This document shows positions 18,493 through 30,463 of a stretch of DNA of 64,000 nt, piece after piece. The stretch spans positions 992,001 to 1,056,000 of the forward strand of contig NZ_BPIM01000001.1 of NCBI RefSeq assembly GCF_026004115.1, given 5' to 3'. Position numbers and translations under genes: made by a program. This DNA is from Meiothermus sp. GTDB lineage: Bacteria > Deinococcota > Deinococci > Deinococcales > Thermaceae. A model generated the notes under the pieces. The model saw only the letters and a program-made list of their open reading frames with translations. It did not search any database and was not told the DNA's origin. Positions within the stretch are counted from its first letter, which is position 1. The number at the start of each line of letters is the position of its first letter.

Positions 18493-20292
18493 GTGCAGGA
18501 GCGGATTAGAAATTTCTCCATCATTGCGCACGTAGACCACGGCAAGTCTACGCTGGCGGATCGGATTCTCCAGATGACCAAAGCGGTCTCGGACCGGGAG
18601 ATGCGCGAGCAGTTTCTGGACTCGCTCGAGCTCGAGCGCGAACGCGGTATCACCATCAAGGCCAGCGCGGTGCGGCTTTTTTACCAGAGCCAAGCCGGCG
18701 AAACCTACACCTTCAACCTGATCGATACCCCCGGCCACGTGGACTTTGGCTACGAGGTAAGCCGAGCGCTGGCCGCCGTGGAAGGGGTGCTGTTGGTGGT
18801 GGACGCCTCCCAGGGCGTGGAGGCCCAGACCATCGCCAACTTCTACCTGGCTATGGAGCACGAGCACACCATCATCCCGGTGATCAACAAGATTGACCTG
18901 CCGGGGGCGCAGCCGCTGGAGGTGGCCCTCGAGGTAGAAGAAGTGCTGGGCATCCCCGCCGACGACTGTGTATTTGCCTCCGGCAAAACCGGCCAGGGGG
19001 TAGACGAGATTCTGGAGGCCATCGTGGCCCGCATCCCGGCCCCTGCGGGAGCGCCCCAGAACCCCACCCAGGCCCTCATCTTCGATTCCATCTACGATGC
19101 CTACCAGGGGGTCATCCCCTATGTGCGGGTGATGGACGGCCGCATCAAGCCAGGCGACACCATCCGCATCTGGTCTACCGGCAAGGAATTCGAGGTGGAC
19201 AAGGTGGGGGTCTTCCGCCCAGGGGCCCTGGAACCCGTGGCGCAGCTGGGCCCCGGCGAGGTGGGCTGGATTACCGCCTCCATCCGCGAGATTGGCGACG
19301 CCCAGGTTGGCGACACCATCACCTCGGCCCAGAGCCCCTGCCAGGCTCCCTATCCGGGCTTCCAGCCGGCCAAGCCGGTGGTCTTTGCCGGCCTCTACCC
19401 CACCGACACCCAGGATTACAACCGGCTGCGCGAGGCCCTGGAAAAGCTCAAGCTCAACGACGCGGCGCTCTCCTTTGAGCCGGAGACCTCCGAGGCCCTG
19501 GGCTTTGGCTTCCGCTGTGGCTTTTTGGGCCTGTTGCACGCCGAGATTGTGCAAGAAAGGCTCGAGCGCGAGTTCAACCTCGACCTCATCTCCACTGCCC
19601 CCAGCGTGATTTACCGGGTCAAGCTCTCGGACGGCTCCGAGATCGAGATTCACAACCCCTCCGAGCTGCCCAGCCCGGACAAAGTCGAGGCCATCTACGA
19701 GCCTTACGTCAAACTTACGGTCTATACCCCCGAAGAGTACGTGGGCTCCATCATGCAGCTTTTGCAAGAAAAGCGCGGCAAAATGGTCAACATGCACTAC
19801 ATCGGCAAGCGGGTGGAGCTGGTTTACCAGGTGCCGTTTGGAGAAATCCTCTACGACTTTCACGACCGACTGAAGTCCATCAGCCGGGGCTATGCCTCCA
19901 TGGATTATGAGCAGATCGGCTACCAGGAAGGCGAGCTGGTCAAGGTCTCCATTTTGGTCAACGAAGAACCCGTAGATGCGCTGGCCTTCATCGCCCACAA
20001 GGACAAAGCCTATGGCATTGGGCGCGAGATTGTGGACAAGCTGGGGGAGGTGATTCCCCGCCAGCAGTTTGCGGTGCCCATCCAGGCAGCCATCGGGGGC
20101 AAGATTATCGCCCGGGCCACCGTCAAGGCCCTGCGCAAAGACGTACTGGCCAAGTGCTACGGCGGCGACATCACCCGCAAGAAAAAGCTTTTGGAAAAGC
20201 AAAAAGAGGGCAAGAAGCGCATGAAGGCCATCGGCAAGGTAGACGTACCGCAGGAGGCCTTCCTGGCGGTGCTGTCGGCTGGGCGCGACTAG
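18493..20292 (+). CDS. lepA: elongation factor 4 (back-translocating GTPase)
   Basis: A ribosome-bound GTPase of 599 residues, the normal LepA length. G1 is AHVDHGKST (12-20), the [12 protein letters not shown] switch and NKID G4 motif follow, then EF-G-like domains and the LepA-specific C-terminal domain ([21 protein letters not shown]). GTG 18493 gives the canonical [14 protein letters not shown] terminus and follows a TACAAT box by 9 nt. The 3' end overlaps the convergent pilin gene by 4 bp. Confidence 0.97.
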
Positions 20293-21110
20293 TTGAGGGT
20301 TATATCGGTCAAGCGCTTGGGCAGGTTGCGGGGAGCCGCCTCGAAGCGCAGCGGATTGGCCGGTACACGGGAGTCTCGCCCACCCTGGCGGATTTCACCC
20401 TGGAGCGAAAAACGTACCCTCACCGCGCTGTGTTCCGGCCGAAGGGATACAGCAGGGGCGGCGGGACAAGGAGCCAGCGTGGCCAGGCCCGCCTCGTCGA
20501 AGCCCAGGCAGTCGCTGTAAGTCACCACAAAACCGCCCGGCTGCACATAGTCGGCCAGCAGATTGCCGGTGCTGTCTGAAATGTCGGTGGGAATGGTAGC
20601 CGGTAGCCCGTTGGGCAAGCGGTTGCTCCCCACCACCAGGTTGCGCTCGTAGATGTACAGCAACCACTTGTCGTTGTTGGCGGGGTCGGAGCCGGGGTTC
20701 TCGGCCCCGCTGGCCCGGCTCACCACCCAGCCCCGGTTAACGGGGTAGATCATTACAAACTTTACTACCTCTACCCCGCTCTCCAACCGGGGGGGCTGAA
20801 GCAGGGCAATGGCCGGGTCTTGGCCAATGCGCCAGGTGTTGTTGTTGGTATTGGGGTTTCGCACTGTATAGCCGCCCGCGCCTCCAATGGTGAGGGTCAC
20901 GCCCGGAGGATAGATAAAAGCTGCCGTAGACAGATAATCGCTCACCAGGTTGCCCGCGTTGCGCAGGTCTTCGGTGAGGAGCTGGGAGTTTTGTACAAAG
21001 CGCAGGCTGTCGCTGCTGCTGCGCAGCCCGGCGGCAATCAGGGCCAGGATGGCTACGCCAATGACAGCAGCGATCAGCATTTCAATGAGGGTAATACCTG
21101 TTCTACGCAT
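20289..21110 (-). CDS. PilW-like minor type IV pilin (operon 1)
   Basis: A 273-residue prepilin. The processing site is [12 protein letters not shown] with Glu at +5, followed by a hydrophobic helix of about 20 residues that packs in the pilus core. The globular part is Asn/Gly-rich, with a late cysteine pair (about 20 residues apart), as in PilW/PilA3-type minor pilins. ATG 21110 is chosen because it starts at the processing motif. It is the last gene of a four-gene operon (ComZ-like, FimT-like, PilV-like, PilW-like) and has a direct counterpart at 24981-25763. It probably helps prime pilus assembly at the tip. Confidence 0.85.
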
Positions 21111-21117
21111 AGAACCT

Positions 21118-21492
21118 TTACAAGGGAGGCAGGGCCACCTCGGTGGCAAAGCGGTAGGGGCGGTTTTGCGGGCCGGTGAACTGAAGGGTGATCCGACGCA
21201 GCACCACCTGGGTTCCAATGGTCTGGATATTTTCAACGTTTACGGTGGGGTTGCTAAAGCCACCGGGGGGCGTTACCGAAGGAGGCACGGCCGCATTGAA
21301 GGTGGTACGAGTTGACCAACTGGCCCGCAGGTTATCAAAGTAGCTCCGGGCAAAGGCCTGGGCCTGGGTATCGATCTGGGCGTTGCGGGTAAGGGTGAAG
21401 CTCGAGCCAAAATAGGTCAGGATCAGAATGGTCAGGGAGAGGATGGCCAGCGCCACCATCACCTCCACAAAGGAGAATCCGCTACGGCGCAC
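21118..21492 (-). CDS. PilV-like minor type IV pilin (operon 1)
   Basis: A 124-residue prepilin with processing site RRSG|FSFVEVM (Glu at +5) and the usual N-terminal helix. The start is GTG 21492, which lies inside the end of the preceding pilin gene (11-bp overlap), so translation is probably coupled. The longer in-frame upstream ATG would add a leader atypical for prepilins. It corresponds to PilA2 of Thermus thermophilus in position and size, an assignment from context only. Confidence 0.8.
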   Translation of the reverse strand: MRRSGFSFVEVMVALAILSLTILILTYFGSSFTLTRNAQIDTQAQAFARSYFDNLRASWSTRTTFNAAVPPSVTPPGGFSNPTVNVENIQTIGTQVVLRRITLQFTGPQNRPYRFATEVALPPL

Positions 21493-21937
21493 GAACCACC
21501 ACCTTTCCCGTGCTGCCCACAATGTGCACATTGAGTATCCGGTTGCCAGGCCCTTGCAGGACGTAGGTTCTGTTCGCTACATCTACAATGCCGTATGGCG
21601 CCAGAAAGGTTACTCGACCCTCACCCGCTGGTACGCTCTGGAAGGTTACGCCCTGGGGAAGGGTCTTTTGTGGGAGCTGAGGGAGGCTGCTGCTGGGCCC
21701 GACCCCGTAGGTGCTGCTGTTAGCGTCCGCCTGAAAGGAAAAGTTGACCGACTGCCGCCGGGCTTGCTGGCGAATGTTGAGGAGCTCGGTCGCCACCTGG
21801 GTAGCTGCTTCGCGGATGGCCAGGCTCTCTTGGTAGGAGCGCAGCGAAACAAAGCCCACCCCCAGCAGGATGCCGAGCACCGCCAGCACGATCAGAAACT
21901 CCACCAGGCTGACGCCCTTTGGGGAAAGTCTTTTCAT
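21482..21937 (-). CDS. FimT/GspH-like minor type IV pilin (operon 1)
   Basis: A 151-residue prepilin with processing site PKG|VSLVEFL (Glu at +5) and the GspH/FimT pattern of a C-terminal strand ending in VHIVGSTGKVVV. Its ATG overlaps the stop codon of the ComZ-like gene as ATGA. Counterpart of 26215-26640. It likely joins the priming complex of the pilus. Confidence 0.85.
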   Translation of the reverse strand: MKRLSPKGVSLVEFLIVLAVLGILLGVGFVSLRSYQESLAIREAATQVATELLNIRQQARRQSVNFSFQADANSSTYGVGPSSSLPQLPQKTLPQGVTFQSVPAGEGRVTFLAPYGIVDVANRTYVLQGPGNRILNVHIVGSTGKVVVRAP

Positions 21938-24054
21938 TGCCCCACCACTTCCCAGATACCCCGATTAAGTTGAGCCTGCTGCCCTGTCGCGATACGTGGA
22001 CGCAAACGATTGTCGTGGTAGATGGTCAGGCCCGAGATGCCGCCTCCAGGGCCCGGTACAAAGATGCCGGTGTCGGCTGCGACCAGCCCGCCCCGCAGAT
22101 CCCAGCGCCCATTCAGCTTGGAGTATTTGCGCTGCGAAAGGCCAAAAATAGCGTTGGCCGAGTAGAGCAGCCCATCGGTGCGCAGGGGGCCGGTACCTCG
22201 AGCATTTATGGAGTCGGCCCAAAGGTTCTTAAGAATGGCGTTGTTGAAGGTGGCCGAGGTTACCTCGTAGCGGGCTGCCCTCGAGAGGATGCTGCTGGCC
22301 TCCGCGGGGGTTAGGGTGACGGTGTTCAGTACAGTGTCGCCTCGGCAGAAGGAAACCTGGGCCCCGCTACGGATGGTGCTGTAGTTGGCGTAGTTCTGGG
22401 GGTCGTGGCTGCAACCGGTAGAGAAGTAAATCTGGTTTTCACCAAAGGTGTAGAGGCGGGGGCGGTAGCTGCTGTCGCGCAGGTAGCGCTGGAGCTCGCG
22501 GCGGTTGAAGTTGGCGATCTCGGTCAGGGCCAGGTTGGGTCGCTGACTGGGGCCTTGGGAACGGATCTGGGAACAGGCTGGGTTGGTGGTGTCGGCCCGG
22601 CAAAAGGTCATGGTTTGTTGGTTGCGGCTGGGGCTGAGCATATCCACGTTGTCGCGGGTGGGGTCGTTGAGCCAGGTGTCAATGGTCATGTAATCGCCCA
22701 CCACAGCATTCCCACCCGCAATCAGGTTGAGTTGGGGCAGGCGGCTGGGGGTGCTGTAATCGCAGGCCGCCAGGGTGCTTTCGGTGCCGCAGTCGTAGGT
22801 CAGGTCGCCCATCACGTAGACGTTGCCACGGGCCAGGATGGTGCCGTTGCCGCGCACACGGCCCCGAATCACCACATCCCCATTGATAAAAACCGTGCCG
22901 CTCAGGGTAATGGGTGTCACGGAGCCATCCAGAATCACGTTGTTGGGGCTCTGGCCCAGGTTGGCCGAGGTCTGGGTCAGCACCGAACCCCCGCCGGGCC
23001 AGGTAATGCTGCCGCTGGGGTTGATGGTCATGGCCGCCGTGATGGAGCCCGCGCTGTAGCTCTCGTTGGTTCCGGCCAGGCTCGAGCTCACCTCAGCATT
23101 CCACTCGGCATCGTCAATCAGGCGGTTGTTGTTGGTGTCGGCAATGGGCAGGGGAAAACCATCCGGCAGCTCGCCATCCGGGGCCCGGTTGCCAAAAGCC
23201 GCCAGGTTGTTGCTGTCTGGATAGTTGTAGTAGAGGTTTTGCGGGGTGGTGCAGTTGCTGGGGGTTGAGCAGTCGGCGGGGGTGACGCTGACCAGGGCCG
23301 TCGAGCGGATGCGGGTATCGCCGGGGTTCATGGTGGTGCGGTAGCGGTTGGAGGGGCCGATGTTGCCGCTGTACTGCTGGCTGACCGTACCCCGGGCTAC
23401 CAGCGAGCCATGCACCACCCCAGCTTCTTCGTTGTCGCGCATGATCAGGCTTTCCAGCACGCCCACCTTGGCCCGCCGCCACCAAGTGCTGGGGTCGGCG
23501 GTGGGGTTGCCCCTTAGTGCGTCCATGCTTTTTACATCCAGGTGGCAGAAAATGCACTCGGCATTGTTGGTCAGAAGGGCGTAATCGAAGGGGAAAAAGG
23601 CCCGATTTATCCGCAAGACTTGCCTTAGGCGCCGGGTGGTGCCATCGGCCAGGGTGCCGGTGGAGATGAGGGTGAGCACGATGGCATCGGGGTCGGTGCT
23701 GGTATCGTCCTGGCGCGAGACCCGTACCACAAAGCTCGAGCCATCCCCCAGGCTTTGCGGGTCGCCAAACAGGCTGGCAATGGTGGTGCCGTTGGTCAGG
23801 CCTATGCGGTTGAGCTCGGCTGCGTAGGCACTTACGCTGGGAGAGGCGGCAGCGGCCAGCACCTCGTGCCACAACCGGGCCACGGCCCGCTCGAGGCCTG
23901 CCTCGGCGGCGAACTGGGCCTGCGAGGTGCGCAGGGCGTCCTGGGCGTTGCGGCGGTTGTTGAGCGAGGTGAGCGAAGCCACGCTTACCAGAATGATAAC
24001 GATGAACATGAATACCAGCGTTGAAACCAGCGTAATTCCCTTGGTATTTGGCAT
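21934..24054 (-). CDS. giant ComZ/PilX-like pilin with CxxCH and EF-hand-like loop (operon 1)
   Basis: A 706-residue prepilin-like protein. The processing site is NTKG|ITLVSTL, but Glu at +5 is replaced by Ser, as in GspK-type tip pilins. After the N-terminal helix there is a pilin-like part, a CIFCH motif (167-171), an EF-hand-like loop at 306-317 (Asp306, Asn308, Asn310, Ile313, Glu317), and a beta-solenoid-like stretch at about 376-422 with repeated GDVVI/RGNVYV units. Paired cysteines follow. The layout matches the known T. thermophilus ComZ design, a beta-solenoid inserted in a pilin fold that binds DNA at the pilus tip. GGAGG stands 7 nt before ATG 24054. The competence role is inferred. 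Confidence 0.8.
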   Translation of the reverse strand: MPNTKGITLVSTLVFMFIVIILVSVASLTSLNNRRNAQDALRTSQAQFAAEAGLERAVARLWHEVLAAAASPSVSAYAAELNRIGLTNGTTIASLFGDPQSLGDGSSFVVRVSRQDDTSTDPDAIVLTLISTGTLADGTTRRLRQVLRINRAFFPFDYALLTNNAECIFCHLDVKSMDALRGNPTADPSTWWRRAKVGVLESLIMRDNEEAGVVHGSLVARGTVSQQYSGNIGPSNRYRTTMNPGDTRIRSTALVSVTPADCSTPSNCTTPQNLYYNYPDSNNLAAFGNRAPDGELPDGFPLPIADTNNNRLIDDAEWNAEVSSSLAGTNESYSAGSITAAMTINPSGSITWPGGGSVLTQTSANLGQSPNNVILDGSVTPITLSGTVFINGDVVIRGRVRGNGTILARGNVYVMGDLTYDCGTESTLAACDYSTPSRLPQLNLIAGGNAVVGDYMTIDTWLNDPTRDNVDMLSPSRNQQTMTFCRADTTNPACSQIRSQGPSQRPNLALTEIANFNRRELQRYLRDSSYRPRLYTFGENQIYFSTGCSHDPQNYANYSTIRSGAQVSFCRGDTVLNTVTLTPAEASSILSRAARYEVTSATFNNAILKNLWADSINARGTGPLRTDGLLYSANAIFGLSQRKYSKLNGRWDLRGGLVAADTGIFVPGPGGGISGLTIYHDNRLRPRIATGQQAQLNRGIWEVVGQ

Positions 24055-24075
24055 GAAACGCCTCCAGACCTCCCA

Positions 24076-24081
24076 AACTTA
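24076..24081 (-). promoter_or_regulatory. -10 box of minor-pilin operon 1
   Basis: TAAGTT on the minus strand, followed by a leader of about 20 nt carrying GGAGG. The palindrome at 24115-24130 would be centred near -54, a position typical of activator sites. Confidence 0.4.
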
Positions 24082-24114
24082 CTTGAATGATTTGTAATCG
24101 CCTTCAATTGTAAC

Positions 24115-24130
24115 ACCCCCAAATGGGGGT
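24115..24130. promoter_or_regulatory. palindromic operator upstream of pilin operon 1
   Basis: ACCCCCA-AA-TGGGGGT, perfect 7-bp arms, centred 68 bp from the ComZ-like start codon. The same palindrome recurs at 29279-29294 and 30576-30591. It is not followed by a T run, which argues against a terminator of the regulator gene next to it. Confidence 0.65.
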
Positions 24131-24174
24131 ATTTAATCTATACCACTTTTGTCTGTCCAGGAGGAAACCACCCT

Positions 24175-24759
24175 CTAAATGCTTAGCAACCCCAGGCTGC
24201 GGGCCCGCTCGAGGGCCTCCACGCGGTTGCGGGCCTCGAGTTTCTCGTAGAGCCGTACCAGGTGATCCTTGACGGTCTCGGGCGAGATGTGCAGGTTGCG
24301 GGCAATTTCTTTGGTGGAAAGCCCCTGGGCCATCCACTGTAATACTTCCTGCTCGCGGGCAGTCAGTTTGGGAAGTTCCGGTGCCCGCAGGCGGGGCTCT
24401 TGCCCCTGGCTGAGCCTACGTAGACGTTCGGCCAGAGCCTCAGGCGGAAGCTCTTTCGACCAGTAGGCGTCGGCACCAGCATAGGCCGCCTGCTGGATCA
24501 AAACCGGTTCGTTGAAGGTAGTCAGGAGGGTAATCAGGCCCCGGTAGCGCTGCTCGCGCAGCAAACGTGTGGCGGTGATTCCGTCCATTTGCGGCATTCG
24601 CACATCCAGCACCACCCCATCCGGCAGCAGTTGCAAGCACAGGTTCAGGGCTTCCTGTCCGTCGCCGGCCTCCCCCACCACCTCGAAGCCCTCGCGCTCG
24701 AGGGCCGCCCGCAGGCCCACGCGAAAAAGGGGGTGGTCGTCGGCAATGAGGAGTCTCAT
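24175..24759 (-). CDS. NarL/LuxR-type response regulator
   Basis: A 194-residue two-component regulator. The receiver domain has the acidic pocket ADDHP (6-10), phosphoacceptor Asp52 in LDVRMPQMDG and the conserved Lys in WSKELP. A LuxR-type helix-turn-helix follows (LTAREQEVLQWMAQGLSTKEIARNLHISPETVKDHL). ATG 24759 starts directly at MRLLIADDHP; a TTG four codons upstream is possible. It sits between two minor-pilin operons on the same strand; a histidine kinase lies beyond the second operon. It is the natural candidate for binding the shared palindromes. Confidence 0.93.
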   Translation of the reverse strand: MRLLIADDHPLFRVGLRAALEREGFEVVGEAGDGQEALNLCLQLLPDGVVLDVRMPQMDGITATRLLREQRYRGLITLLTTFNEPVLIQQAAYAGADAYWSKELPPEALAERLRRLSQGQEPRLRAPELPKLTAREQEVLQWMAQGLSTKEIARNLHISPETVKDHLVRLYEKLEARNRVEALERARSLGLLSI

Positions 24760-24980
24760 AGCATCTCTCAAGCCATAAAGCCTTCAAGCCAATTCTAAGG
24801 CCACCCGTAAACTACCAGATGTTCTTTTTTGGCGGTTTGGTTGGACTTGATCTTCACAAGTCAGGGGTATTATCGCGCTCTTCAAAGACGTAGCACGCCA
24901 TCCATCGCGGTCGCCACAAATACTTGGTGAAGCAAACCCCGCTGTAGCGAGTATTTGCAGAAACCACCCTCACGTGGCAA
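24760..24980. other. intergenic region upstream of the response regulator
   Basis: 221 bp without a credible gene. CAAATACT (24917-24924) and AGTATTTG (24950-24957) form an 8-bp inverted repeat downstream of pilin operon 2. The CCCCCA palindrome seen at the neighbouring promoters is absent here. Confidence 0.4.
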
Positions 24981-25763
24981 TCAGTTGCCAGGAGGAACAG
25001 CCCTTGGTATGCCCCTGGCAAGAATATCGGTCTGCCGGGTAGCCCGCAGGCCATTGGCATAGGCAACAGCCACTTCAATCCGTACCGATCCAATCAGAGC
25101 GTTGGCGCTGTTCAGGTTCACGCTGATTGTGTTGGTCGGGATCGCCAGAACTCGATCTATTTCACTGGCTATGCCAGCAAACGATAGGAGGCTCAGATTG
25201 GTTCCATCGTCGGTTACCGAATCGGCCACCACCCCTCTGGATTTGAATCCTGCAGAAGTCCAGTTGTTGGCTACGCTGGTTGGATTGGTGTTCGCATTCC
25301 AGGTCAGGCCTCTGGCCTGGTATTCCACCAGCACCCATCCGCTGTTACCCGGCGTATTACCCAGATCGGCGATGTAAGGATCTCGAGGCTCGAGGCGGTA
25401 CAAAAAGCCACAGTACTGGTTCGTGGTCAGGGGGCAGTAAGCCGTTCTGGGGGGCACCAGAACTGCCAAGGCATCGTCTCCAGTGACCACTGCCGTATTG
25501 GTCACGCCTGTTTGTACCGTGATGGTGGCGTTGTTGGGGAAGATATAACCGGCTTGCGATATCACATCGCTCATACGTAGGGTAGCCTGACGAACATCCT
25601 CATTGACCCGTCCTGCCAGTACCTGGCGGGTGGTAATATCCTGGTTTTGGAAGATCAGTCGGCTCGACAGGCTCAAGACCAGGCCCAGCACCGCCATGGC
25701 AACCAGCAGCTCTACTAAAGTTATGCCCCTGGAGCTCAGGTGATTGGTGTATCCTGTGTTCAT
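24981..25763 (-). CDS. PilW-like minor type IV pilin (operon 2)
   Basis: A 260-residue prepilin with processing site SSRG|ITLVELL (Glu at +5), hydrophobic helix and a long Asn/Thr-rich globular part with a Cys pair (YCPLTTNQYC). ATG 25763 follows GGGGGAG with a 5-nt spacing; the TTG immediately before it is less likely. It is the last gene of the five-gene operon 2 and paralogous in position to 20289-21110, although the sequences have diverged strongly. Confidence 0.85.
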   Translation of the reverse strand: MNTGYTNHLSSRGITLVELLVAMAVLGLVLSLSSRLIFQNQDITTRQVLAGRVNEDVRQATLRMSDVISQAGYIFPNNATITVQTGVTNTAVVTGDDALAVLVPPRTAYCPLTTNQYCGFLYRLEPRDPYIADLGNTPGNSGWVLVEYQARGLTWNANTNPTSVANNWTSAGFKSRGVVADSVTDDGTNLSLLSFAGIASEIDRVLAIPTNTISVNLNSANALIGSVRIEVAVAYANGLRATRQTDILARGIPRAVPPGN

Positions 25764-25774
25764 CAAAGCTCCCC

Positions 25775-26215
25775 CTAGCGAAGCCCGGTGGACTGCGGAT
25801 TGCCGATATCGGTTACAAGGCGAGCGCGAAGGTTGGAGCCCTGCCGCACCTCCACCTCAATGCGTCGCAGGGGTGGCTGACCCGTACCGGTAAAAGCCGT
25901 GCCATCGGGGTTGATGACCTGAGCAGCGTTGATGGTAGCGGTCAGACCCACCGATGCGAGCTTGCTGGCCAGGGCCGACAGATCGGGCGGGGTGGAGCCT
26001 GCGGTGTAGTTGGCTGGTACGCTCCAGTGGGTGCGGTAGCGCTCTGTCACGCTTTGTACGTACTCGGAAGCAAAGGCGTTGATACGGCTCTGGCGACTGA
26101 TCTGCAGGCTCGAGCCGATATTGGCTGCCACCACCCCCAGCACAATGGTTAAAACCGCCAGCGCAACCAGTACCTCCACCAGGGTGAAGCCTGACATGTT
26201 GCGGTTGGACTTCAT
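25775..26215 (-). CDS. PilV-like minor type IV pilin (operon 2)
   Basis: A 146-residue prepilin with processing site NMSG|FTLVEVL. Its ATG overlaps the preceding stop codon as ATGA, so synthesis is probably coupled to the FimT-like pilin. The globular domain is short and beta-rich (PPLRRIEVEVRQG). Counterpart of 21118-21492. Confidence 0.83.
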   Translation of the reverse strand: MKSNRNMSGFTLVEVLVALAVLTIVLGVVAANIGSSLQISRQSRINAFASEYVQSVTERYRTHWSVPANYTAGSTPPDLSALASKLASVGLTATINAAQVINPDGTAFTGTGQPPLRRIEVEVRQGSNLRARLVTDIGNPQSTGLR

Positions 26216-26640
26216 CAGGGAATCACCACCTTTCCAGTAGGTAATAGCACGACCTCCCGAGCGGGCCTCGAGCCAATCTGCAAACCCAAGCGGTACTGAT
26301 TGAGGGGAAAACCTCGACCCGCATACTGAATCGTTGAACCAGAAGGCGTAAGCGATACGATCTGTACAGCGTTGGGAACTACCATGCTACCCACCGGGCC
26401 CTCCGAGTTGGCCCACTCGAGCCGGCTGTTTGGGCCCGTGGTGATGGTAACGGTGTAGCCGCGGCTTTCCGTGAGTGCGCGGTTGCCCACCGAACGCAAG
26501 GCTTCGGCTACCTCTTGTAGGGCCTGGTTGAGGCGGCTACTTTGAATATAAGCGTTAAGGTTAGCCACCGCCAGTCCGCCCAGAATAGCCATTACGGCCA
26601 GCACGATGAGCATCTCGAGCAAGGTAAATCCCCGTCTCAT
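26215..26640 (-). CDS. FimT/GspH-like minor type IV pilin (operon 2)
   Basis: A 141-residue prepilin with processing site MRRG|FTLLEML and a C-terminal REVVLLPTGKVVI strand like that of its operon 1 homologue. It overlaps the upstream gene by 4 bp (26637-26640) and the downstream gene by one base, giving a tightly coupled operon. Confidence 0.85.
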   Translation of the reverse strand: MRRGFTLLEMLIVLAVMAILGGLAVANLNAYIQSSRLNQALQEVAEALRSVGNRALTESRGYTVTITTGPNSRLEWANSEGPVGSMVVPNAVQIVSLTPSGSTIQYAGRGFPLNQYRLGLQIGSRPAREVVLLPTGKVVIP

Positions 26641-26972
26641 GAACCACCCCGTTTGTAGTTCATTTGAAGCTGTAGCTGCTGGGGCAACTGGTTAATTTCA
26701 AATGGGTACACCTCACGCTTGCTGCCGTCCTGGAAGTTCAGCACCCATCTGCCGTTTTGCTGGGTAATGAAGTTCACCATCTCGGGTCGGATTTCCTCCA
26801 GCGCCAGGCTGCTCATGGGCCTGGCAGCGCCCGGTTGGGCTGGAGAAGCTTCCTGAATGGTCACGACAGCGGGTTTCGGGGTAGGTGCGGTGGCCTGGTT
26901 CCTTGGCCACAGCATCCAGACCAGATAGACCCCTACGGCCAGGGCCAGTGCGAAAATAATTCTGAGCACCAT
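26637..26972 (-). CDS. small membrane-anchored protein of pilin operon 2
   Basis: A 111-residue protein with one N-terminal membrane segment (MVLRIIFALALAVGVYLVWML), a Pro/Ala-rich linker and a small extracytoplasmic domain (about residues 55-111). It lacks a prepilin cleavage motif. There is no counterpart in operon 1. Position between the ComZ-like and FimT-like genes suggests an assembly or alignment role, perhaps like a short PilP or PilO part; this is a guess. ATG 26972 is 4 bp after the preceding stop codon. Confidence 0.7.
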   Translation of the reverse strand: MVLRIIFALALAVGVYLVWMLWPRNQATAPTPKPAVVTIQEASPAQPGAARPMSSLALEEIRPEMVNFITQQNGRWVLNFQDGSKREVYPFEINQLPQQLQLQMNYKRGGS

Positions 26973-26976
26973 GGTC

Positions 26977-29220
26977 TCACCGCACCCTTTCGTTGGGGTC
27001 GGCAGAGAGCCGCCAGGAAACCGTCTGTCCGGGGTTGCCCACCACCAGGTTGAAGCCATAGCCCCCGTTGCGCAAACGGTGGTCGTAGTTGACCGTAAGA
27101 GCGCAGTCCTCTGTATCGGCTACAAAGTAGGTCTGCCCTGCGCTATTGCACTGCCGGTTCGTGTCGGTTGGGCTGGATAAGAAGTTATAACGGCTGCTCT
27201 TCCACCAGCCTTTAAAGCGCCCAGGCGCCAGAATGCCCAGTTCCTTGGCAATCAATCCCCCATTCATGGCTACGCCCAGCATGCTGGTTTTGCCCGCAAT
27301 GCGAAAGTTGCTGTACAAGAAAGCATCCACACGGGTGACCTGGGTTTCATAGGAAAGCGCCTGGTCGCGCACCACCCGCAAGGTACGCCCACCCTGTATG
27401 TGGATGTAACCTACTACATTGCCTGCGTTATCGCGCAAGTCCTGCCCTCCGTTACTAGGAGGAATTGAAGAAGGGCAACCATTGCTGCCAGCAGAAAGAT
27501 TGGCCAGCCGACACGCAATTGCCCTAGCCTGATTGGAGGGGATGCGGGCGTTGACAAGCTCGGTCTCGATGGTGTTGCGAAAACTAACTTTAGCCGATGT
27601 GCTGCCGGGAGGCATGCCAAAGTCCCAGCGCCAGGTGTTATAGGCCAGGTTGCTCGATCCCAACAGGGTATTTTTATAAAAGTCGTCCGAAATCCACCCG
27701 GTAAAGTTGCCGCTTGGGTCTATAGAGCCAGGTCTAAAGCTATAGGAATAGGCATCCTGAGCCGGATTGGATTGGTTGGCCGCACGGGTGATCACGCGGC
27801 TGGCAGAGATTTCGGTGCCTTCCACGTTGTAATAACGGCCATCTTTGAGCACCAGCTCGTCACCCGTCTGCGTATCGTAATAACGATTGCCACCGTAAAA
27901 ACCAAACTGAGCCCGGTAGAAGTCCGCAGATTGGCGCAGGTCCACGGGCAACAAATTCCCACTAGCGTTGCGCTCGGTGTAGTCACCTACAATGGTGTTA
28001 CCCCGCGCGGCCAGCCTTAGTTCATCCCGCCCATTGGCAATGTTGAGCCGGGCGCATTGATCCGGGTCGGTCACCCCCGTACAGACCCCTTGCCCTGGCT
28101 TGGAGGGGGGGTTCTGGTAGGTCACGTTGCCCGCGATGTACAAGTTGCGTCCGGCATAGATTGCGCCGCGTCCACGAACCACCCCCTTGATGACCACATC
28201 CCCGCTCACATACACATCTTTGTCCAGCACAATAGGGTTCTCGGGGGTGCCAATGAGTACCAGGTTGCCTTCGTGGGTTCGGCTAATTCCGCCCACCATC
28301 GCCGAGACCTGGGTCACCGGATTGAGCACCTGGCCAGAGCTCAGCGCTACAATGGTGCCACCTCTAAGACTACCGTTCGCACTGGCCATTGCTACCGAGC
28401 GCTTGATGGGGGGAAAATCGGGGATGCCGTCCCCGTCGGTATCTTGGGGTAGGGCCGAGTTGGTAGAGTTGGCTTCCACATTCCCGGTCACCAATGAGCC
28501 GTTGATCTTGTAGGCATTCAGTGTGCCGGTTCCGTTGGCCGAGTAGTTACCGCGCGTCAGAGCTCCTTCACCGTTCCGAGGGGTGTCGTCGTTGGTAATG
28601 GTGCGCGCAGCGTAGAGGTTACCCCGGATCACCGAGCCCCCCTCATGACCGCCCGAGCCCTGTCCACTTACACCCTCGGTACCCCAACCGGGCCGGTGGT
28701 GAAACAAAGCCCCCACATCCCCATTGACCCGCAGGTGGCAGTACATGCAGTTGGTGGTCTCGGAAAGCATGGCCAGCTTAAAGACATCGTTTTGTCCAAA
28801 GCTGATCCGCCGGACTACCGTCTGACTTTCGTTGCCTCGGCTGGCGGTAGAGGCCACCTCAATCCAGCCGTACTCCGCGCCCACGCCCGAAGTACCCAGT
28901 ACCCGCCAGCGTCCGGTTATTCCATTGCCCAGGTCTACGGTGGCAGTGGGGGGGTTTGCGTTGACCTGGTCTAAATAGGCCGGCACACTGATGCCCCGGC
29001 TGCGGTAATCGAGCACCAGTTGCAACCGGGCGCGTTCCGAGAGGCCATCGGCGGATTGGGCCAGCTCGTCGCGGACGCTTACTGTTCGACCATTTCGTAG
29101 CTCGCTGAGCACGCTGGCGCTGAGGGTGGTAAAAATCGCGATCACGATCACCACCGCTACCAGCACAGTAACAAGCGCGATTCCTTTCCTAGCGAAGGGG
29201 TTGGTTTGTCCAGACTTCAT
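26977..29220 (-). CDS. giant ComZ/PilX-like pilin with CxxCH and DxDxDG calcium loop (operon 2)
   Basis: A 747-residue homologue of the protein at 21934-24054. The processing site is ARKG|IALVTVL with Thr in place of Glu at +5. CMYCH lies at 158-162, a thrombospondin-type calcium loop DTDGDGIPD at 260-268, and a beta-solenoid-like part at about 325-370 (VYVSGDVVIKG, GRNLYIAGNV). The order and spacing of these elements repeat those of the operon 1 protein although overall identity looks low. A His/Gly-rich stretch follows the CxxCH (about 174-193). GAGG precedes ATG 29220. Probable pilus-tip component; DNA binding is inferred from Thermus ComZ. Confidence 0.8.
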   Translation of the reverse strand: MKSGQTNPFARKGIALVTVLVAVVIVIAIFTTLSASVLSELRNGRTVSVRDELAQSADGLSERARLQLVLDYRSRGISVPAYLDQVNANPPTATVDLGNGITGRWRVLGTSGVGAEYGWIEVASTASRGNESQTVVRRISFGQNDVFKLAMLSETTNCMYCHLRVNGDVGALFHHRPGWGTEGVSGQGSGGHEGGSVIRGNLYAARTITNDDTPRNGEGALTRGNYSANGTGTLNAYKINGSLVTGNVEANSTNSALPQDTDGDGIPDFPPIKRSVAMASANGSLRGGTIVALSSGQVLNPVTQVSAMVGGISRTHEGNLVLIGTPENPIVLDKDVYVSGDVVIKGVVRGRGAIYAGRNLYIAGNVTYQNPPSKPGQGVCTGVTDPDQCARLNIANGRDELRLAARGNTIVGDYTERNASGNLLPVDLRQSADFYRAQFGFYGGNRYYDTQTGDELVLKDGRYYNVEGTEISASRVITRAANQSNPAQDAYSYSFRPGSIDPSGNFTGWISDDFYKNTLLGSSNLAYNTWRWDFGMPPGSTSAKVSFRNTIETELVNARIPSNQARAIACRLANLSAGSNGCPSSIPPSNGGQDLRDNAGNVVGYIHIQGGRTLRVVRDQALSYETQVTRVDAFLYSNFRIAGKTSMLGVAMNGGLIAKELGILAPGRFKGWWKSSRYNFLSSPTDTNRQCNSAGQTYFVADTEDCALTVNYDHRLRNGGYGFNLVVGNPGQTVSWRLSADPNERVR

Positions 29221-29473: not shown

Positions 29474-30463
29474 TCACAGTAACTGAATGCGCAGCCTTGT
29501 TCCCTGGCCCCCTAAAGCCAGGTTTTCCAAGCGCCCCCCATGCACCTCGGCCACCCGCCGGGCCACATACAGCCCCAACCCCGCGCTGCCCGCCCGCACC
29601 CCCCGCAGGCGCTGGCTGCGGAAGGGCTGGGATAAGGCCTCCAAGCTATCGGGCAGGCCGGGTCCATCGTCTTCGACCTCGAGCCAGCCATCCCCCGCCC
29701 TGAGTACCACCCGGCTACGGGCATGGCGCAGGGCATTCTCGGTCAGGTTGGCCACAGCCCGCTCGAGCAAGAGCCGCTCGGCGCGGGCCTGCCCGGCTCC
29801 TTCAATCTCCAGTCGCAGACCGCGCTTTTGGGCCTGCTGGGCATAGCGCAGGCGAAAGTCTTCCAGAATCGAGCGCAGATTGAGGTTTTCCGGCTGGATC
29901 CGCTGGGCCTCGAGGCGGCTGGCAGTGAGCAGATTTTCCACCAACAAATAGCTGCGGTTCAGTTCGTCTTGCAAGCTGCGCAGCATTTCTTTGCGTTTTT
30001 CCGGCCCAATTTTGTCGGCCTCTTCCAGGTATTCCAGCGCCCTAAGGCTGGCCAGCAGGGGGGTCTTGAGGTCGTGGGTCAGGGCAGCGTAGGTGGCCTC
30101 GCGGGCTTCTAGCAACTCCCGCAGGTGATCCAGCACTTCCTCGAAGCCCTCGCGCAATTGGGCAATCTCGGCCGGGGGGCGCTGCTTGGGTGAGGGCAGC
30201 GAGAGATCGGCCAGGGTGCGGCCCGCCCCGCGCAGGTAGTACAGGCTGCGGGTTAGCTCGTCCATGGGGCGCAAAAGGGTATTGGCCAGGACATAGCCCA
30301 CCCCCGCTGCAATCAGGGCCAGCACCAGCATCCAGGCCAGCAAAAAAAGCGAGGTCTCGAGGGGCTCCCCGCGGGCCGAGACCCAAAAGGTCAGCACAAT
30401 CACCAGGTTAGGAACAAAGGCCAGTAAACCAATCACCCAGGCCAGTTGATGCTTGAGCGGCAT
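29474..30463 (-). CDS. sensor histidine kinase
   Basis: A 329-residue membrane kinase: two membrane segments (about 10-29 and 39-61) with a very short loop between them, a HAMP-like linker, the HisKA motif THDLKTPLLAS with phospho-acceptor His130, then the N box NLTENALRHA, G1 DDGPGLPD and G2 GSAGLGLYVAR. With so little outside the membrane it may sense a membrane or pilus state. HisKA kinases usually partner OmpR-type regulators, yet the nearest regulator (24175-24759) is NarL-type. TAGACT (30470-30475, minus strand) is 6 nt from the ATG, so it is probably leaderless. Confidence 0.92.
   Translation of the reverse strand: MPLKHQLAWVIGLLAFVPNLVIVLTFWVSARGEPLETSLFLLAWMLVLALIAAGVGYVLANTLLRPMDELTRSLYYLRGAGRTLADLSLPSPKQRPPAEIAQLREGFEEVLDHLRELLEAREATYAALTHDLKTPLLASLRALEYLEEADKIGPEKRKEMLRSLQDELNRSYLLVENLLTASRLEAQRIQPENLNLRSILEDFRLRYAQQAQKRGLRLEIEGAGQARAERLLLERAVANLTENALRHARSRVVLRAGDGWLEVEDDGPGLPDSLEALSQPFRSQRLRGVRAGSAGLGLYVARRVAEVHGGRLENLALGGQGTRLRIQLL

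Follow-up and report, generated by a model that had tools for sequence, protein, structure and literature searches.

Two giant minor pilins and their operons

The window analysed here, a stretch of 64,000 nucleotides from the genome of a Meiothermus species, contains two genes for giant minor pilins, called A and B in the following, each of which heads its own minor-pilin operon with the order K-H-I-J (Table 1). In A, a short leader with the sequence MPNTKG is followed by the pilin domain and then by a beta-solenoid, while B starts with a leader that has ARKG at its end and continues with the same two domains. Both proteins have a prepilin-like leader, an N-terminal helix and a cleavage site without Glu5 (G-ITLV in A and G-IALV in B), and K-type minor pilins usually do not have this residue. 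The matches to known families, PilX_N in the case of A and GspK in the case of B, are weak, and both score below the curated cut-offs. On the basis of these features, A and B are probably tip-type (GspK/ComZ-like) K minor pilins, and their location at the pilus tip may be assumed by analogy with ComZ.

Table 1. Features of the two minor-pilin operons, with positions given in the numbering of the window.
Feature	Position	Strand	Basis
K-type minor pilin A, 706 aa	21934..24054	(-)	ORF; weak PilX_N and MinC_C/FapA solenoid matches; full-length homologues
K-type minor pilin B, 747 aa	26977..29220	(-)	ORF; weak GspK match; homologues
CIFCH motif of A, residues 167-171	23542..23556	(-)	Translation; C, C, H invariant in alignment
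CMYCH motif of B, residues 158-162	28735..28749	(-)	Translation; C, C, H invariant in alignment
Cys422-Cys431 of A, probable structural disulfide	22762..22791	(-)	Kept in the CxxCH-less relative L120
Cys380-Cys389 of B, counterpart of Cys422-Cys431 of A	28054..28083	(-)	Alignment
H-type minor pilin, A operon	21482..21937	(-)	N_methyl and GspH-like matches; operon order
I-type (PilV-like) minor pilin, A operon	21118..21531	(-)	Family matches; operon order
J-type minor pilin, A operon	20289..21236	(-)	Family matches; operon order; true start probably inside ORF
H-type minor pilin, B operon	26215..26640	(-)	GspH-like match; operon order
I-type (PilV-like) minor pilin, B operon	25775..26215	(-)	Family match; operon order
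J-type minor pilin, B operon	24981..25766	(-)	Family matches; operon order

As claimed in a preliminary description of this DNA, each of the two pilins carries a CxxCH motif, and the letters from 23556 to 23542 and from 28749 to 28735, read on the minus strand, indeed give CIFCH and CMYCH, respectively. It should be pointed out that the minus strand encodes both genes, and that a plus-strand reading of the same coordinates gives no motif. The two motifs were also said to stand in matching contexts, and this is confirmed here (FDYALLTNNAECIFCHLDV in A and FKLAMLSETTNCMYCHLRV in B). The two sites correspond to each other, both being located at the passage from the pilin domain to the beta-solenoid. 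A and B are only about 25–30% identical, and their homology extends past the pilin domain, with a solenoid core that is 38% identical (E 2.2e-9).

With 8–10 Cys and 5–7 His residues per protein, the composition would lead one to expect about 0.001 CxxCH motifs in each of them, and shuffled sequences with such a motif were obtained in 16 and 11 cases per 20,000 shuffles of A and B, respectively. No other ORF of at least 100 aa in the window has a CxxCH, and none was seen in the other pilins of the A- and B-type loci. The cysteines of A and B outside the motif are all found in close pairs.

Relation to ComZ and other minor pilins

GspK- and PilX-type minor pilins are similar to A and B in their place in the minor-pilin set, in the missing Glu5, in the N-terminal helix and in the weak family matches. 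However, the scores fall short of the curated cut-offs, and the large domain of A and B is a solenoid. We know of no CxxCH in GspK or PilX.

The preliminary description had labelled the two proteins as ComZ- and DUF4900-like, and neither label could be substantiated. Searches with A, with B and with a joint A/B profile find no PDB ComZ, and DUF4900 is absent from the Pfam matches listed up to E = 1. That A and B are ComZ orthologues can be ruled out, since ComZ is a separate paralogue gene without the motif. A Thermus protein that matches PDB 6QVI (locus L122) was used as a query, and ComZ orthologues were in this way found in 9 of the 18 Meiothermus genomes, most of them 39–42% identical and full length. 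None of the orthologues checked has a CxxCH, and the same search found no ComZ orthologue in the genome of the window. Another Thermus K pilin (locus L078) was considered as ComZ and rejected, as it has no match to the PDB ComZ. The function for which ComZ is required could usefully be examined in a species that has two such solenoid tip pilins but lacks ComZ.

The ComZ of Thermus thermophilus (PDB 6QVI; PMC6561018), for which a tip location has been argued in the same study, resembles A and B in being a large minor pilin whose pilin domain is followed by a beta-solenoid, in belonging to the same kind of minor-pilin set, and in that the chain exits the pilin domain at an equivalent place. It differs from them in that its orthologues lack the CxxCH, in that the profile aligns over the N-terminal 64 positions only, and in the order of the genes, the ComZ operon being H-I-J-K and the A and B operons K-H-I-J. 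The stretch of ComZ that is equivalent to the motif region is WNYAIFSGRGAANKHLNGG. Judging from this correspondence, the motif of A and B would be located at the exit of the ComZ chain from its pilin domain, that is, at the same hinge. The motif is absent from all other large K pilins examined, which, in addition to ComZ, comprise a 629-aa type, a 701-aa type and others.

Conservation and concerted loss of the motif

Motif-bearing homologous loci were found in Deinococcota at 41 distinct places, and they are spread over 17 of the 18 Meiothermus genomes, both of the two sister-genus genomes searched, three further Deinococcales families and one Deinococcus plasmid. In the plasmid homologue (NZ_CP092194.1; L145:3062-5224) the motif is kept as CVMCH. 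No relatives of A or B were found on viral contigs, and a scan of genome contigs with one single-sequence query gave Meiothermus matches only. In the pilin-domain tree the backbone is unresolved, and neither a single clade of A and B nor a single origin of the CxxCH is supported.

In an alignment of 27 diverse members, all of them motif-bearing, the C, C and H of the motif are kept without exception. Only 22 columns of this alignment are invariant, and these three residues make up three of them. The question raised in the preliminary description, whether the two Cys and the His co-vary, can be answered in the affirmative: the three residues are kept together and lost together, and the His is conserved with the Cys.

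The loss concerns the sole full-domain exception, an A-type paralogue in genome G081 that we call L120. It has NGVFSNS where its nearest relative has NCIFCHT, so that C, C and H have become G, S and N and none of the three residues is left. Both the ORF of L120 and its H-I-J operon are intact, the protein is nested among motif-bearing A proteins with a support of 100/98, and CcmE is present in its genome. The site is thus dispensable in at least one relative. L120 has changed 6 of the 22 invariant columns, and the probability that all three motif columns would be included under random changes is 0.013, as computed post hoc.

The other cysteines behave differently from those of the motif. L120 retains the pairs 262/268 and 422/431, and elsewhere in the family the other Cys tend toward pairwise loss (262/268, 485/494 and 548/570). 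Because they are lost in pairs, their behaviour is that expected of disulfides. The motif behaves as one three-residue site, which is evidence against a plain disulfide.

Probable heme attachment and alternative explanations

The attachment of heme c put forward in the preliminary description would call for cytochrome c maturation genes, and these are present. The genome has a System I Ccm operon, in which Pfam identifies CcmB, C, E, F and H; an ABC ATPase takes the place of CcmA, and a thioredoxin of the CcmG type and a TPR-cytochrome fusion are encoded as well. Of 61 relatives, 60 have CcmE. The distribution of the motif cannot be accounted for by Ccm alone, because Thermus has Ccm without these pilins. 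As to the fusion, it is encoded by the gene after ccmH (L128:12280-13290; G000:C1, about 2.160 Mb), and in it TPR repeats (CcmH/CycH-like) are joined to a cytochrome c domain; to our knowledge, such a fusion is not found in other Ccm operons.

System I has been reported to attach heme to CxxCH motifs engineered into the shell protein of a bacterial microcompartment, with success at 4 of 5 sites (PMC6962350), and CcsBA, the bacterial synthase of the other system, requires just two thiols and a His (PMC8112865). An exported and strictly kept CxxCH in a System I cell is therefore likelier to carry heme than zinc. As far as can be judged from sequence, the motif in A and B is best explained by covalent heme c, a reading that we consider probable. 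With nearly the same confidence, the two proteins may be regarded as tip-type minor pilins in which a single covalent heme c would sit at the junction of the domains. The heme c site of the preliminary description hence stands as the best reading, given the conserved His and the ccm genes, whereas a second axial ligand is not conserved.

A and B belong to no known cytochrome family. There is no cytochrome-domain match in Pfam for either the whole proteins or the motif segments, and a cytochrome origin of the motif segment was ruled out for lack of any family match. In the AlphaFold models of A and B, which are based on shallow alignments, the mean pLDDT is 39.7 and 34.8, respectively, and about 22 at the motif, and the geometry is not readable.

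The alternative that survives best is a metal site. Here the three motif residues would coordinate Zn2+ or a different metal, the fourth ligand being water or a conserved Asp, and would fasten the beginning of the solenoid to the pilin domain. The observed behaviour of the C-C-H triple would be equally expected for such a site, which is also consistent with the lack of both a conserved second axial heme ligand and a cytochrome domain match. However, the three residues are not accompanied by a conserved fourth Cys or His, and a System I cell is expected to put heme on an exported CxxCH (PMC6962350). We regard the metal site as unlikely.

Another option considered was that the two Cys form a disulfide, either plain or redox-switching, and that the His matters for a different reason. 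This would be in keeping with the nature of A and B as presumably exported, disulfide-rich proteins in which all other Cys are in close pairs, but the His shows the same invariance as the two Cys and was lost along with them in L120, while no His is linked to the gain and loss of other Cys pairs. It follows the metal site in our ranking and is likewise improbable. Finally, the A proteins inside Meiothermus are 61–96% identical, such that conservation there alone is little informative, but chance or shared ancestry without function can practically be dismissed, being contradicted already by the conservation among proteins as divergent as A and B in a family that spans four Deinococcales families and a Deinococcus plasmid, by the few invariant columns of which C, C and H are part, and by the occurrence of the motif in under 0.1% of the shuffles.

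Possible role of the putative heme

With covalent heme c as the preferred reading, the following sequence of events can be envisaged. The periplasmic part of A and B would be exported unfolded by Sec, and System I Ccm would then attach heme to the two Cys of the motif, the His of which would become the proximal iron ligand. The proteins would fold around the heme and, together with H, I and J, enter the nascent pilus, presumably at its tip. There, the heme would either lock the domain junction or bind a small ligand, rather than conduct electrons.

A conserved second axial ligand is usual for electron-transfer cytochromes, although not universal. In the 27-member alignment of A/B-type K pilins, there is no other invariant His or Met. 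A distal ligand from a partner pilin was also considered and rejected, as H, I and J of the same operons have no conserved His or Met. The I pilins (25775-26215 and 21118-21531 in the window) have one Trp that is invariant in 23 CxxCH operons, but it is also present in some K-H-I-J operons without CxxCH and can thus be ruled out as a motif-linked ligand. The putative heme is probably five-coordinate, or its sixth position is occupied by water or by some ligand that is weak or variable. A weak candidate for a heme-pocket residue is Tyr631 of A: all 27 motif-bearing members have this Tyr, and L120 has a His in its place.

The redox-active tip that the preliminary description had suggested finds no support in the sense of electron conduction, since there is neither a conserved second ligand nor a CxxCH in the other pilins. 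Long-range conduction is unlikely because each tip protein has a single heme motif and no such motif was seen in the other pilins of these loci, and a structural or a sensing/ligand-binding role is the likelier one. A more specific proposal, which we make only tentatively and which may well not hold in full, is that of a tip pilin with a non-cytochrome fold and a covalent heme c, the sixth position of which would be open or weakly held, that acts in ligand or redox sensing as part of a four-gene cassette swapped between species.

Two known systems are relevant for comparison. TfcP of Myxococcus xanthus (PMC8833165) is a CxxCH heme protein that comes from a minor-pilin cluster and is needed for pili, and it was judged unlikely to serve electron transport. 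It is, however, a separate periplasmic protein outside the pilus that contains a cytochrome c domain and shows His/Cys ligation, whereas A and B are pilins that bear the motif themselves, and no second ligand is conserved in them. The sCache_heme sensors (DUF3365; PMC12889525, preprint) share with A and B a CxxCH that is strictly conserved in a non-cytochrome fold, and they also have heme-less relatives. In that case the strictly kept motif led to a demonstrated heme c, while in A and B the heme is predicted, and sCache_heme is a sensor domain with an unrelated fold. Apart from TfcP, no heme motif in a pilin was found in the open-licence literature.

If heme is attached, A and B would be heme-bearing tip pilins with a non-cytochrome fold, for which there is no precedent in the open literature searched, and pilins would join the substrates of the Ccm machinery. 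L120 would then be a natural heme-less control, and redox or small-ligand sensing by pilus tips would become directly testable. If the site instead holds zinc, a C-C-H strictly kept at the domain junction of a tip pilin would still mark a functional spot that is absent from ComZ.

Genomic surroundings

The K-H-I-J order of the A and B operons is repeated in most CxxCH loci of sufficient length. In the window, a small membrane-anchored protein (26637-27059, minus strand) is encoded between B and its H pilin; it overlaps the 3' end of B, and its family match is a weak one to the YidC N-terminus only. The B operon is flanked by a histidine kinase gene (29474-30463) and a response-regulator gene (24175-24771), both on the minus strand, and in the relative G015 a similar kinase gene lies between ComZ and B (L082:2284-3279). 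A two-component system linked to the pilin locus is possible.

Also in G015, the B gene is split across two contig ends (L038 and L062; C67 and C156), with an in-frame TAG near the break, which is probably an effect of the assembly. The homologue on the Deinococcus plasmid is annotated as a polymer-forming cytoskeletal protein, probably owing to the solenoid, and is a tip-type pilin. In G002, which is a close relative, ComZ is found directly upstream of B (G002:C178:1832-3478; L083, L142). A comparison of loci L146, L147, L148, L149, L151, L079, L083 and L082 shows that several Meiothermus genomes have a swappable minor-pilin cassette, with either the 629-aa or the 701-aa K pilin, between the ComZ operon and the A operon, and that in other Meiothermus genomes a B-type CxxCH cassette adjoins ComZ.
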